Positions 41,465 to 46,240 of a DNA stretch of 64,000 nucleotides are shown one piece after another. Numbering within the stretch: position 1 is the first letter of the stretch; each line of letters begins with the position of its first letter. The notes beneath the pieces are model-generated. The model was not told where the DNA came from. It did not search any database and worked only from the letters and a program-made list of their open reading frames with translations. The DNA is from Allocoleopsis franciscana PCC 7113 (GTDB lineage Bacteria > Cyanobacteriota > Cyanobacteriia > Cyanobacteriales > Coleofasciculaceae), in assembly GCF_000317515.1 (NCBI RefSeq), contig NC_019738.1, positions 3,250,001-3,314,000 on the forward strand, given 5' to 3'. A program made the translations under genes and the position numbers.

Positions 41465-42202
41465 TCACAACTGATTTGGGTCAATCCCGCGTTCTCGCAG
41501 GAGCGCCTCTAAGGCTTGATAGCGCTGTCTTTCCTGTTCCAACTGAGTCAGCGCTTCATCTGCTCGTTGGCGTTCCTGTTCGGCACGTTGGTATTCTTGT
41601 TCAGCGCGTTGGCGTTCCTGTTCCCTCTGTTGAGCTAGTTCAACAAAGGACAGGAAGCGTTCTCCTGAGGGTCCAAAAATTTCTAGGTTGTCAGATGTTA
41701 GCTGAAACCTTATCTCCAGACGGGGACTCACCCAACCGTTCATTTCCTCAATTACCTCTAATTCCTCTCCAGAACGCAGCCAGCCTATTAACTCCACGCT
41801 ATCTGGGTCGTAAACATAGTATTCTTCTACGCCATAGCGTTTGTAGAATTGGAATTTCTGAGCCATTGCTTTGAGGCGATTGCCGGGGGATAAGATTTCA
41901 AATACTACTTGTGGCGGAATATGATCTTCTTCCCATTGCTTGTAGGAACCCCTGTCTCCTTTTGGTCTACCAAAGACAACCATTGCATCCGGTGCTTGGC
42001 GAAGCTTGTTATCTCCTTCTACGGGATACCAAAGTAAATCACCTGCGACAAATACTTCAGGGTTAGCGGCGAATAACAGTTCTAAATTTTCCTTAATAAC
42101 GACAATCCAGCGAAATTGTTTTGTGTTATCTGCCATTGGTTGACCGTCGCTATCAGGGTAGATGATGGCTGGTGCGGTATCAGTTGGCAATTGTTGTACC
42201 AT
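41465..42202 (-). CDS. Uma2 family protein with coiled-coil tail
   Basis: 245 residues. The Uma2 domain (about 1-190) contains APDAMVVFGRPKGDR, PPQVVFEILSPGNR and FYKRYGVEEYYVYDPD, the standard core. The last ~55 residues are heptad-rich repeats of REQERQRAEQEYQRAEQ type, a tail found on many cyanobacterial Uma2 proteins, ending LLRERGIDPNQL. It converges with metH (13 bp apart) and is divergent from the XRE-GTPase gene. Confidence 0.9.
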   Translation of the reverse strand: MVQQLPTDTAPAIIYPDSDGQPMADNTKQFRWIVVIKENLELLFAANPEVFVAGDLLWYPVEGDNKLRQAPDAMVVFGRPKGDRGSYKQWEEDHIPPQVVFEILSPGNRLKAMAQKFQFYKRYGVEEYYVYDPDSVELIGWLRSGEELEVIEEMNGWVSPRLEIRFQLTSDNLEIFGPSGERFLSFVELAQQREQERQRAEQEYQRAEQERQRADEALTQLEQERQRYQALEALLRERGIDPNQL

Positions 42203-42383: not shown

Positions 42384-42413
42384 TTGGTGAATATATGCAT
42401 AAATAACTAATAT
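42384..42413 (+). promoter_or_regulatory. Candidate promoter of the XRE-GTPase gene
   Basis: TTGGTG (42384-42389) and TAATAT (42408-42413) are 18 bp apart, a reasonable sigma70-type pair. The palindromic operator at 42435 lies just downstream, where a bound repressor would block elongation or open-complex formation. Confidence 0.4.
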
Positions 42414-42434
42414 ATTTTAGCAAATATGCTAAAG

Positions 42435-42462
42435 TAGCATTTATTGTCAAACATAAATGCTA
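42435..42462. promoter_or_regulatory. Palindromic operator upstream of XRE-GTPase gene
   Basis: TAGCATTTAT, eight spacer bases, ATAAATGCTA: a perfect 10-bp inverted repeat that ends 9 bp before the ATG. A related, smaller palindrome TAGCAAATATGCTA is at 42418-42431 and shares the TAGCA half-site. Two adjacent sites with the same half-site just ahead of a gene encoding an XRE-type helix-turn-helix strongly suggest autoregulation. No good Shine-Dalgarno precedes the ATG. Confidence 0.6.
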
Positions 42463-42471
42463 TAAACTAAC

Positions 42472-44583
42472 ATGAATATCAGCATATATGATGTTTCGGG
42501 CGACATTGGGAAGACTCTGGCTGAATTGAGAAAGGCAGCGAAAAAGAAGCAAGCGGATATAGCTGAAAGCCTCAACGTAGCTCAAAGCCATGTCTCACGC
42601 ATTGAGAAGGGGAAACTCATCCCCACTAACGAGGAGATTGAGGGATATTTGAGTGCTATTGATACGGATGAGGCACGGGATTATCTCGCGTTCTTGAAGC
42701 CTTGGGAAATTTTGAAGCGTCCCTCATTCAGGAATCCGCAGCGCGACGAGTTGTGGAAGGCAGAGACTTCTCTGCGAGAGCTAAACCAATTAATCTCTAA
42801 CGATGCACCTGATTTACTCAAAGCTCAAGCTCAGATGTATGACAAGAGGGTTCGGGAAGAGGCAGAATATTTGACTTCTCTCAAACACTCGATCGCCTAC
42901 GTGGGTTCCGTTGGTGTTGGTAAGACAACAGCAGTTTGCAAACTCACAGGGCTTATAATGCCCCAGGAAAAAAACTTTCTACGCCAAAGCATTCTTGCCG
43001 TAGGAAGTGGCAGGACAACAGTGTGCGAAGTTTGCATCCGACCTGGAGCGAAGTTCGGGATACGGGTGAAGCTTAAATCTAAAGATGAAATACACAAGTT
43101 AGTTGAGGACTTCTGCGCGGCTAAGAGAAATATCGATAAGGGAAATCAGGAAAATCAGTTAGAAGTAGTCTCTGAAGAAATGCAGCGCCTACTACTAAAT
43201 ATGGCAGGGTTGCAACCGGAGAGTTTAGCAGAGCTGATTAAACAGTGTGACAATGCAGATACTCTCCCCTTAAAGTTTTTAGAACTGCTAAAGCTCCCTG
43301 AAAGGACGCGAGAGGAAATTGAGTACGATAAAACATCTAATCAGACTGGCATCGAATGGCTTAAAGAAACCTTTAAGCTTATAAATTATGGTCGTCACAA
43401 AGAATTTTCTGTACCACAGCGGATCGATGTTATCGTTCCGGATAACGTCTTTCAGTTCTCTGACTATGAGTTAGAGATTATTGACACACAAGGTATAGAT
43501 AAAACGGCAATCCGACGTGATCTATTAGGCTACCTAAACGATCAGCGTACCCTTACTGTATTGTGTTCCCGGTTCAAAGATGCACCGGACCGAGAGATAT
43601 ATGATCTCTTAGAAAACCTGATTAAGAACGGTGCAAAAAAGACATTAAAAGAGCGTGTTCTCATTCTCGCTCTTCCGCAGAATGATGAAGCAGACAATAT
43701 GATGAATTATGCTGGCGACCCAGTAAATTCAACAGACGAGGCATATAATCTGAAACGTGAAGAAGTGCAGACTAAACTACAACCGTTACTACAAAGTATA
43801 GAAGGAATTGATATACCTATTATCTTTTTTAACGCCAAATCCGAAGAAGACAACCCCGCGAAGATAGCTAATGAGCTAATCAAGAAACTGGATAACTTAC
43901 GAGATAGCTATGTTAAGCAATTGTCAAGCACAGTCGAGGCGATCAACGTCTTGATTAAAAATCAAAAGGAACAAAATGCACGGGATGCTTACAAAGAGGT
44001 CAGCGAGTCCTTGAAGATTTTTCTCAAGGATTACCGAAACAAACCACTGCCCTTGTGGAATGTATATACGAGCCTAATAGAACAGATGGAGAAGACGCCT
44101 GCAAGTACCATACGAGCAACCATGCGCCGTAACGGAACTTGGCACAAGTTCGATGTCTATTTACATCTCGGCAATAAAGCTAGGTCGAATGCTTGGAGTG
44201 CTACTCGTCCTGCTTTCTACGGATTGAAAGAATTGGTCAAAAATATGAACCATAAACCTAAGCTAGAACCTGCGTACAATTTTTTGAGTGAAATCTTAGC
44301 AAATTGGGAGGTATGGCACGAAGAATTCTTGAAATATGCAGAACAAATTGGTGAACAAATTTTTCGACCCACACTGGTAAAATCTTATATCTGGGCAGAA
44401 TGTGCGGCTCTTGAAGGTGCAGGATTTCGAGAACAGGTCATCTGGAAGCTTAGACCGTGGTTTAAAAATCCTGAGCAACAGCACTTACACAACTTTTTAA
44501 AGAACCGCATCGAAGAAGCATGGCAAGAAAAAGTGTTGGCACAACTAGAAAAGCTCACGGATAAAGGTACAGAAGGGGACTAA
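42472..44583 (+). CDS. XRE helix-turn-helix fused to a dynamin-like P-loop GTPase
   Basis: 703 residues, no family name recognised. Residues 10-70 are an XRE/Cro helix-turn-helix (LAELRKAAKKKQADIAESL, VAQSHVSRIEKGKLIP). A large P-loop NTPase follows: G1 GSVGVGKTT at 145-153, a switch-I-like GRTTVCEV near 180-187 and the G3 motif IIDTQGID with DTQG at 338-341. The ~155 residues between switch I and G3 form a long insertion containing a helical segment. No NKxD G4 is visible; LALPQNDEA near 400 may replace it. The C-terminal ~250 residues are helical and charged, with Trp/Phe-rich ARSNAWSATRPAFYGLKELV. The order resembles dynamin-like or LeoA-type GTPases, but fusion to a DNA-binding domain is unusual. 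It could be a stress or phage sensor controlling its own transcription. Confidence 0.8.
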   Translation: MNISIYDVSGDIGKTLAELRKAAKKKQADIAESLNVAQSHVSRIEKGKLIPTNEEIEGYLSAIDTDEARDYLAFLKPWEILKRPSFRNPQRDELWKAETSLRELNQLISNDAPDLLKAQAQMYDKRVREEAEYLTSLKHSIAYVGSVGVGKTTAVCKLTGLIMPQEKNFLRQSILAVGSGRTTVCEVCIRPGAKFGIRVKLKSKDEIHKLVEDFCAAKRNIDKGNQENQLEVVSEEMQRLLLNMAGLQPESLAELIKQCDNADTLPLKFLELLKLPERTREEIEYDKTSNQTGIEWLKETFKLINYGRHKEFSVPQRIDVIVPDNVFQFSDYELEIIDTQGIDKTAIRRDLLGYLNDQRTLTVLCSRFKDAPDREIYDLLENLIKNGAKKTLKERVLILALPQNDEADNMMNYAGDPVNSTDEAYNLKREEVQTKLQPLLQSIEGIDIPIIFFNAKSEEDNPAKIANELIKKLDNLRDSYVKQLSSTVEAINVLIKNQKEQNARDAYKEVSESLKIFLKDYRNKPLPLWNVYTSLIEQMEKTPASTIRATMRRNGTWHKFDVYLHLGNKARSNAWSATRPAFYGLKELVKNMNHKPKLEPAYNFLSEILANWEVWHEEFLKYAEQIGEQIFRPTLVKSYIWAECAALEGAGFREQVIWKLRPWFKNPEQQHLHNFLKNRIEEAWQEKVLAQLEKLTDKGTEGD

Positions 44584-44742: not shown

Positions 44743-45522
44743 CTAAACCTCATCATCCAAATCAGGTTCAACGCCAAGCGATCGCAATTGTTCTGTTAAT
44801 CTTTCTACCCGTCGTCTTTCTCGCTCAAGCTGTTGACTTTCTTGCTCAGCTCGTTGTCGTTCTCGTTCTTCAGGAGTCAGAATCCAGTTACCAGCAGCAT
44901 CATACCAACGCAACCAGACGCGATCAATTCCCTGATAAACACCTTGCCACAATCCCAAACCTAGTTGAATGTCATTCATCCACACTCGCGGTTCACTCAG
45001 TTCTAATTCTGAATAGCTACTACCGACTAACTGAAACGCCCTCAACTGATCGCTATAACGGTCAAACACAATGTAAAAGGGAACCCGCAAAATGCGCTCG
45101 TAAACTTCCCATTTCGTCGGGGGTTGATTAACTTCCCGCAAAGCTTGTCCTAAATCTTCTTTTTCAGTTCCCGGTGATAGCAGTTCGACGACGACGAAAG
45201 GATTAACCCCTTCTTGCCAAACCACATAGCTTAAGCGTAGTTCCCGTTGCTCATACAACCTAGATACGCCTAAAACTGCAAACCAGTCGGGGCGTTTATA
45301 CCAAAGAGGATGGCGAACGTTGTAGTAAAGATTTAAATCGCTGGCAACAAAGATTTCGCCTTCTGGATAGTTTGCAGGACAGAAGGTGTATCCCAGCAGT
45401 TGGGGCTGTAGTAGATGGTATTCGTCAGGCAAACCGGGTTCCTCTGGGTCTTCGCTAGGAAGATCGTACATTGTGGGCAAAACTTTTTTCGGGTCAAGAG
45501 GAGGGTCGGTTTGATACATCAT
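44743..45522 (-). CDS. Uma2 family protein with coiled-coil tail
   Basis: About 259 residues from the ATG at 45522 (MMYQTDPPLDPKKVLPTMYDLPSED). The frame is open further upstream to 45630 but would then overlap the next gene. The Uma2 domain includes LYYNVRHPLWYKRPDWFAVLGV, NPFVVVELLSPGTEKEDLG and VPFYIVFDRYSDQLRAF. The tail is a short Glu/Arg coiled coil ending LRSLGVEPDLDDEV. It is the third Uma2 gene within 9 kb. It follows the membrane protein at 45611 in the same direction and may be co-transcribed with it. Confidence 0.88.
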   Translation of the reverse strand: MMYQTDPPLDPKKVLPTMYDLPSEDPEEPGLPDEYHLLQPQLLGYTFCPANYPEGEIFVASDLNLYYNVRHPLWYKRPDWFAVLGVSRLYEQRELRLSYVVWQEGVNPFVVVELLSPGTEKEDLGQALREVNQPPTKWEVYERILRVPFYIVFDRYSDQLRAFQLVGSSYSELELSEPRVWMNDIQLGLGLWQGVYQGIDRVWLRWYDAAGNWILTPEERERQRAEQESQQLERERRRVERLTEQLRSLGVEPDLDDEV

Positions 45523-45610
45523 GCCCAACAGGGTAGCGCTGTCAACTTCATCATACAAAAAAGCACCTTGGCTAAGGTGCTCAAAGAGGAGGTAACAATC
45601 AACAGAAAAA

Positions 45611-46240
45611 TTATCGTTCTCGATACACACGAGGACTCCGAGTTCCCACTGAGGCTCCTCCCATCGATGCAGCTAAACCCAGTAACGAACCAATCACAAA
45701 AGACCACAATCCCTTCGCAGCATCTCCAGCAATATTACGCGTTTGCTGAGCTGTTACATTCGGCGGATTGTCGGGTAGATTAACGCCACCCTGTTGAACC
45801 TGATTGACAACTTCCCCAGCATTGGATGCTGCGATTCCAAAAGCTCCCGTCACCCCACTGGCTAATAACCAAGAGCCAAGTGCTAGAGTCGTTGCCCAAA
45901 GAATTGCACCATTGAGAAGCGCTGTATTGCGGTTCATTGGCCCACTGGCACGGGCGGCAACCCAACTGCCGATAAATAAGGCAATTAACAAACTAATAAT
46001 TGACCAAATTCCTACGCCCGTGCCAACGCCTGGTGCATTGGATCTCGGTGCCCCTGAACCGGATAAAAAACTGGCTCCAATCGCAGCACCTAAAGCACTC
46101 AAAATAAGTTGAGTGGCTAAAGCAACCACAAGACCTGAAATAATCGGTCCCCACCGTACACGGTCATGATATTCTACTACTTGATTCACAACGGGAGGTT
46201 CAGTTATCAAATTATCTCCCGGTCGATTGGTGTATGTCAT
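45611..46240 (-). CDS. Small glycine-rich membrane protein
   Basis: 209 residues with about four membrane helices: RWGPIISGLVVALATQLILS, VGIWSIISLLIALFIGSWVA, ALLNGAILWATTLALGSWLL and LWSFVIGSLLGLAASMGGAS. A ~30-residue Asn-rich N-terminal cytoplasmic tail (NRPGDNLITEPPVVNQ) precedes them. The RWGPIISGLVVALATQ opening and the SWVAARASG loop occur in widespread bacterial proteins of unknown function (TIGR04086-like). The C-terminus is basic. No transport or enzymatic motif is seen. Confidence 0.8.
   Translation of the reverse strand: MTYTNRPGDNLITEPPVVNQVVEYHDRVRWGPIISGLVVALATQLILSALGAAIGASFLSGSGAPRSNAPGVGTGVGIWSIISLLIALFIGSWVAARASGPMNRNTALLNGAILWATTLALGSWLLASGVTGAFGIAASNAGEVVNQVQQGGVNLPDNPPNVTAQQTRNIAGDAAKGLWSFVIGSLLGLAASMGGASVGTRSPRVYRER

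Follow-up and report, generated by a model that had tools for sequence, protein, structure and literature searches.

The nearest described relatives, by predicted fold, of the protein reported here are bacterial dynamins. The SynDLP paper and the cyanobacterial DLP review that were searched make no mention of a DNA-binding domain. SynDLP, BDLP/NosDLP and the 5oxf pair, the best structural matches to our model, appear to share with it a G domain and a long helical stalk, whereas the present protein carries a helix-turn-helix (HTH) before the G domain, has a degenerate G4 and lacks a hydrophobic paddle. In the Eleos system, a set of dynamin-based defence genes, LeoA works with LeoB and LeoC. The LeoA structure (4aur) is a moderate Foldseek match to our protein (E 3.6e-4) but, unlike Eleos, the present case consists of one gene with a fused HTH, its PADLOC match is confined to that HTH and, by annotation, no Leo gene adjoins it in the loci viewed.

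DynA of B. subtilis is a bacterial dynamin with a reported anti-phage effect, which delays lysis and protects cultures from phage (PMC8844932). The abstract presents DynA as a membrane-fusion protein and reports no HTH, the comparison with our protein being made at the level of the fold (PMC8844932). RptR, a repressor of restriction islands that is linked to type I R-M, has a promoter of its own in which several short palindromes lie over the -10; it binds TAGCTA in 9-bp repeats (PMC12255303). RptR is a separate repressor (PMC12255303), whereas the repressor described here would be part of the candidate effector itself and its predicted sites are 10 bp long and 31 bp apart. No description of an HTH-dynamin/GTPase fusion was found in a literature search that left out bioRxiv and most subscription journals.

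The gene studied here lies in a window, that is, the whole stretch of 64,000 nucleotides of Allocoleopsis franciscana PCC 7113 that was analysed (contig NC_019738.1, positions 3,250,001 to 3,314,000). Our main reading, to which we give a probability of about 0.6, is that it encodes a self-repressing single-gene dynamin-like effector, an accessory mobile gene that is most likely directed against phages or against other DNA elements entering the cell.

Gene layout and predicted fold

The gene is the single one of the HTH-dynamin type in the whole 7.97-Mb genome, and its ORF (Table 1) starts and ends where an initial annotation, made from the sequence, had placed it. That annotation had described a fusion of an HTH with a dynamin-like protein, and this description holds, as the HTH scores above the Pfam gathering threshold and the predicted structure is clearly dynamin-like. 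The N-terminal region matches HTH_31 (E 5.9e-10, 39.7 bits for a gathering cut-off of 27) and HTH_3 (E 3.3e-8, 33.9 bits for a cut-off of 23), both over residues 12-68; an N-terminal HTH was found in all 13 of the 13 full-length relatives, and a PDB search showed that the HTH of the fusion protein resembles HigA/HipB antitoxins. Among the PADLOC 2023 models, those of HTH type alone match, over the HTH region, and no system-defining anti-phage model of that set matches the protein; beyond the HTH, no convincing Pfam, NCBIfam or PADLOC model was obtained. Pfam Dynamin_N stays below threshold (17.8 bits for a cut-off of 27), with a match at E 0.01 in one of 13 relatives; the missed threshold is a limit of sensitivity rather than a biological criterion.

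The G3 box that had been noticed at the outset is present, and the P-loop is likewise intact (Table 1), the hallmark residues of the two motifs (G, K, T, D and G) being invariant in 13 proteins from two phyla. The canonical G4, [TN]KxD, which goes with guanine specificity, is absent: LPQNDEA is found instead, and this position varies across the family in the 13-protein alignment. Since the G4 departs from the canonical motif and varies in the family, GTP is a putative nucleotide of the protein, the GTP-driven control that had been suggested at the outset is hypothetical, and the protein is described here as dynamin-like by its predicted fold, not filed as a proven dynamin GTPase.

Sequence searches of the PDB, with the single protein or with a profile, yielded essentially HTH proteins only, so that the fold rests on an AlphaFold2 (AF2) model of the fusion protein, built from five sequences, its own and fetched ones (mean pLDDT 78.5, pTM 0.55). 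The model shows an HTH of five helices at residues 12-75 (pLDDT mostly 86-92), a helix pair, an alpha/beta G domain into which a large helical segment is inserted, and four long stalk helices; confidence is low over the P-loop region, where pLDDT falls below 50 at 148-157 and at 159-172, and residues 85-135 correspond in alignment to the beginning of dynamin-like structures. Searched against the PDB with Foldseek, the model retrieved bacterial dynamins on top (SynDLP, E 8e-10; dynamin pair 5oxf, E 2e-9; BDLP, E 5e-7), followed by IniA, Fzo1 and mitofusin, with LeoA also among the matches. VIA-align gave Z 14.8 over 405 residues with 5oxf_B (rmsd 14.0) and Z 14.4 over 295 residues with MFN2 (rmsd 6.7), the rmsd of full-length structural alignments being large. 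The structure prediction that the initial annotation had proposed as a check for a dynamin-like stalk thus returned one, together with matches to dynamins by Foldseek and VIA-align. A separate AF2 run on L046, a distant member (30% identical), gave the same G domain and stalk (pLDDT 78.0), with the HTH at low confidence.

No transmembrane-like segment was found in the stalk, where KD19 is at most 0.9 and there is no hydrophobic paddle; peripheral, SynDLP-like membrane binding may be compatible with a stalk of this kind. The conserved region around RNGTWHKFDVYLHLGNKARSNA probably lies at the stalk tip, judging from the helix lengths in the model.

Table 1. Features of the HTH-dynamin locus, with positions counted from the first nucleotide of the window
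Feature	Position	Strand	Evidence or remark
Operator copy 1, GAATATATGC (-83)	42389..42398	+	Family motif match
Palindrome TTTAGCA-N4-TGCTAAA, enclosing operator copy 2, GCAAATATGC (42420-42429, -52)	42416..42433	.	Inverted repeat
Palindrome TAGCATTTAT-N8-ATAAATGCTA	42435..42462	.	Inverted repeat; contains operator copy 3
Operator copy 3, ACATAAATGC (-21)	42451..42460	+	Family motif match, inside the second palindrome
HTH-dynamin-like fusion gene	42472..44583	+	ORF with ATG, 703 aa
Operator copy 4, GCATATATGA (+10)	42482..42491	+	Family motif match, inside codons 4-7
XRE-type helix-turn-helix, residues 12-68	42505..42675	+	Pfam HTH_31, HTH_3
Two helices (residues 91-107 and 114-135), between HTH and G domain	42742..42876	+	Structure model
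G1/P-loop GSVGVGKTT, residues 145-153	42904..42930	+	Invariant across 13 proteins: G145, G148, G150, K151 and T153
GSGRTT, residues 178-183, likely switch I/G2 threonine (putative function)	43003..43020	+	G180 and T183 invariant
G3 motif DTQG, residues 338-341	43483..43494	+	D338, T339 and G341 invariant
G4 position LPQNDEA, residues 401-407	43672..43692	+	Alignment; preceded by strand 396-401 (model)
Long helical stalk, residues 462-703	43855..44580	+	Model helices 462-522, 562-593, 596-637 and 667-700
Conserved motif RNGTWHKFDVYLHLGNKARSNA region, residues 553-575	44128..44196	+	R553, G555 and A574 invariant

A predicted operator array in the window and across the family

A double operator had been proposed upstream of the gene, and both of its palindromes are real (Table 1), but this description was incomplete: what the window holds is an array of four copies of a family-wide unit, GCATATATGC, whose starts are exactly 31 bp apart, the first palindrome corresponding to copy 2 and the second containing copy 3. 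As 31 bp is three helical turns, the copies share one face of the helix. The first palindrome, of 18 bp, has no second occurrence in the entire genome; when the 150 bp upstream are shuffled by dinucleotide, about 0.3% of the outcomes give an arm as long as that of the second palindrome. A degenerate pattern of two sites 31 bp apart has three whole-genome matches, all of them steps of the window array; this pair pattern was fitted to the array, its absence elsewhere in the genome was not. The conservation of copy 4 in Nostoc could be of coding origin (SIYD).

A plain inverted-repeat test was significant at the window and at L041, marginal at L039 (2.3%) and not significant at the other loci. 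Because it was significant at few loci, we used a shared-motif test, in which all palindromic 10-mers were scanned in the region from -120 to +20 of 15 HTH-bearing loci. GCATATATGC was the top 10-mer, within one mismatch at 7/15 loci (shuffle maxima: average 2.3, highest 4) and within two mismatches at 11/15 (shuffle maximum at most 8), counts that are not fully independent, the family loci being akin (L034 and L036 are 83% identical). At the other gene starts of the same loci it was found within one mismatch at 0/214 and within two at 9/214. It was again the top palindrome in a set of sixteen non-cyanobacterial relatives, from which all cyanobacteria (window and Nostoc) were absent.

Site pairs at 31 bp numbered 7, for a null mean of 0.2 and maximum of 4 in 20,000 draws. 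The loci L003, L034 and L036, the last two from Sphingomonadales, repeat this spacing, and so does the region 5' of an HTH-less gene of G386 (L058), where the sites are perhaps relicts; the Nostoc relative L002 has spacings of 35, 28 and 33 bp instead. In six of seven proteobacterial or viral loci the site falls on the -10, starting 14-16 bp past a TTGAC -35 box, TTGAC being present in 1.9% of random 26-bp stretches at those loci. Other subclades appear to have palindromes of their own, GCAAGTTTGC in L039 and L046 and TGCGAAWWTTCGCA-like ones in L042 and L064; read by eye from the upstream sequences, such subclade-specific palindromes would fit an HTH co-evolving with its operator.

In relatives the core TATATG and the -10 overlap, which might suggest that AT-rich promoters and their -10 boxes produced the whole array incidentally. 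This explanation is most improbable, however, as the motif is reproduced neither by dinucleotide shuffles nor by the 214 starts of other genes in these loci, and a second copy is present exactly 31 bp off, outside the -10, in the window, L003, L034, L036 and L058. The autoregulation that had been suggested for this gene is strongly supported, at the level of sequence, by the predicted operator array and by the family motif at its own promoter, and sequence and structure prediction together make it very probable that the product is an autorepressed dynamin-fold protein.

Distribution and mobility

Full-length HTH-bearing relatives are encoded by two Nostoc genomes (65% identity), and 18 plasmid records hold relatives, 27-32% identical, that span 80% or more of the query. 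The alphaproteobacterial plasmid hosts are Rhizobium, Agrobacterium, Mesorhizobium, Sphingopyxis, Sphingobium, Roseomonas, Aminobacter and others, with Citrobacter carrying the gene on a conjugative IncU plasmid. Two viral contigs have relatives too: in L045 the HTH-dynamin gene ends a stretch resembling a phage structural module, and in L046 it is found between phage late genes and an MTase/Vsr cluster. No relative was detected in the phage records searched or, using the Citrobacter gene and blastn, in complete E. coli genomes, and searches of viral contigs with single proteins gave nothing beyond L046, which was found again.

At the syntenic site of the congener G386, metH (97% identity) and the flanking genes are kept and a WD40 gene is found instead of the HTH-dynamin gene, which is therefore accessory at the window site. 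This position beside metH (L070, G386:C6:12000-20200), with its WD40-repeat gene in place of the HTH-dynamin gene, looks like a variable cargo site.

The closest solved structures being those of cyanobacterial and bacterial membrane dynamins, the protein could be a housekeeping membrane-remodelling dynamin, with the role of SynDLP or BDLP, that is incidentally autoregulated. We regard this as very unlikely for a gene that is patchy and horizontally moved, that has a full-length match in just 1/386 sampled cyanobacterial genomes, that is present or absent between congeners, and whose product has no hydrophobic paddle segment.

Gene neighbourhoods

Homologue neighbourhoods, whose inspection the initial annotation had recommended, contain genes of restriction, of known defence systems or of toxin-antitoxin type at a distance of up to about 10 kb at 12/16 non-cyanobacterial HTH-bearing loci, a raw count, such plasmids being rich in these genes. 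The defence types near relatives include restriction, Hachiman, Gabija, Septu and Dnd. The neighbours are GmrSD, adjoining, with MTases and RelE/HigA (L034); a DpdE/DrmD-type helicase, an N6 MTase and an adjoining DUF262 gene (L036); PtuB with an AAA_21 ATPase directly downstream (L037); MazF/PrlF (L038); HamA as divergent neighbour (L039); DndE and DGQHR (L041); HipA_C (L042 and L063); HipA family, by annotation, and DGQHR (L064); GajA/GajB (L043); an MTase and Vsr (L046); and a DNA methylase (L062). The remaining four loci, L035, L040, L045 and L061, present plasmid cargo, metabolic genes, a contig end and an XRE/M78 pair. The window itself has no obvious defence island and L040 stands amid metabolic genes, both of which count against the defence reading.

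The HipA-type genes of L042 (7971-9803), L063 (5986-7896) and L064 (5968-7803) lie upstream on the opposite strand and share the regulatory region of the HTH-dynamin gene, whose product may take the place of HipB at these loci. Uma2 genes flank the window gene on the minus strand (41465-42202 and 44743-45630), and in the Nostoc locus L002 the HTH-dynamin gene shares 8 bp at its end with a Uma2 gene. The flanking Uma2 genes were considered as partners and dropped, the genome having 88 Uma2 matches and both flanking copies being on the other strand.

A one-chain toxin-antitoxin-like module, or a HipB-like partner, would have the HTH both restraining and repressing, and the dynamin part, or an adjacent HipA, acting as the toxic component. 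The operator architecture, which is like that of autorepressing antitoxins, the resemblance of the HTH to HigA/HipB and the HipA_C gene upstream on the opposite strand at three related loci (for L064, by annotation) all speak for such a module, but no HipA or separate toxin adjoins the window gene or most relatives, and we find this explanation doubtful. A type II toxin-antitoxin system consists of two adjacent genes, for a toxin and for a DNA-binding antitoxin, and the window and most relatives have a single gene.

A sister lineage without the HTH

Cyanobacteria also contain an HTH-less lineage, recognised by profile comparison (probability 100, E 7e-50, columns 120-695). At each of the five loci viewed in cyanobacterial genomes, and on a Pseudanabaena plasmid, the HTH-less gene is followed by a co-directional gene of ~240-260 aa; the two copies tested match the restriction-nuclease domain HSDR_N_2 (the Pseudanabaena copy falls just below the Pfam cut-off). 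The two-gene units of HTH-less dynamin and this second gene are at L053 5871-8747, L054 6041-8899, L055 4112-6975, L056 4659-7534 and L044 9866-12577, and the pair is a candidate defence system in its own right. In G376 (L057 7261-9275) an HTH-less dynamin-like gene is split into ORFs of 98 and 534 aa, likely a broken copy or a sequencing error.

Another HTH-less copy, in G386, closes an hsdR-hsdM-hsdS operon (L058 6519-14123). The two operator-like sites of L058 lie directly 5' of this dynamin gene, despite the protein being without an HTH. The tree groups this copy with the HTH proteins of the window and Nostoc (81/64 support), the HSDR_N lineage standing apart (100/100), and because of this placement the loss of the HTH in G386 looks secondary. 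The one-protein sensor-effector that the initial annotation had imagined fits the window locus but is not universal, the sister lineage having no HTH and being paired with a nuclease.

These findings also bear on whether the protein is an effector or a regulator. As a nucleotide-sensing transcription repressor, it would use its dynamin-like part as a GTP/ATP switch of DNA binding, for which its HTH with dedicated predicted operators and its intact P-loop and G3 can be invoked. Yet the genome has no 31-bp pair pattern outside this array, which leaves no second target gene of that form, and the sister lineage, unlike a pure regulator, dropped the HTH and kept the dynamin part in nuclease operons, so that a role of this sort seems quite unlikely to us.

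Proposed function

We thus retain the self-repressing dynamin-like effector. Defence appears as its most probable purpose because the gene is mobile and has defence neighbours and a nuclease-paired sister lineage, and because DynA protects cultures from phage (PMC8844932). The evidence is circumstantial, and the role in phage or stress defence that had been put forward from the sequence is probable as far as neighbourhoods, mobility and the analogy with DynA (PMC8844932), to which its support is limited, can carry it.

In the resting state, dimers of the XRE HTH would sit on the GCATATATGC-type operators, 31 bp apart, over the promoter and the start codon, and contacts between G domains and stalks would make this binding cooperative and keep expression low. 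Once triggered, the dynamin-like part would engage its target and assemble elsewhere, and the HTH dimers would leave the operators, a derepression driven by titration. The promoter so freed would allow a burst of effector, which would stabilise or block a step of infection, or cooperate with a nearby nuclease.

A bolder version, which we consider rather unlikely, takes DNA and not a membrane as the template of assembly: HTH units would bind the 31-bp operator ladder with the stalks oligomerising along one face of the helix, and the same polymerisation that silences the gene itself would serve as the defence switch once it starts on invading DNA or is lost from the operator.

The functions of bacterial dynamins are poorly understood, and the roles found in the literature concern membranes. 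The HTH fusions, the HTH-less proteins with their HSDR_N nuclease and the hsdRMS operon with its dynamin suggest a new defence-associated dynamin clan. Within it, a mobile and widespread HTH-dynamin family with its own operator ladder offers a compact and testable model for asking whether the assembly of an effector can control its own transcription.
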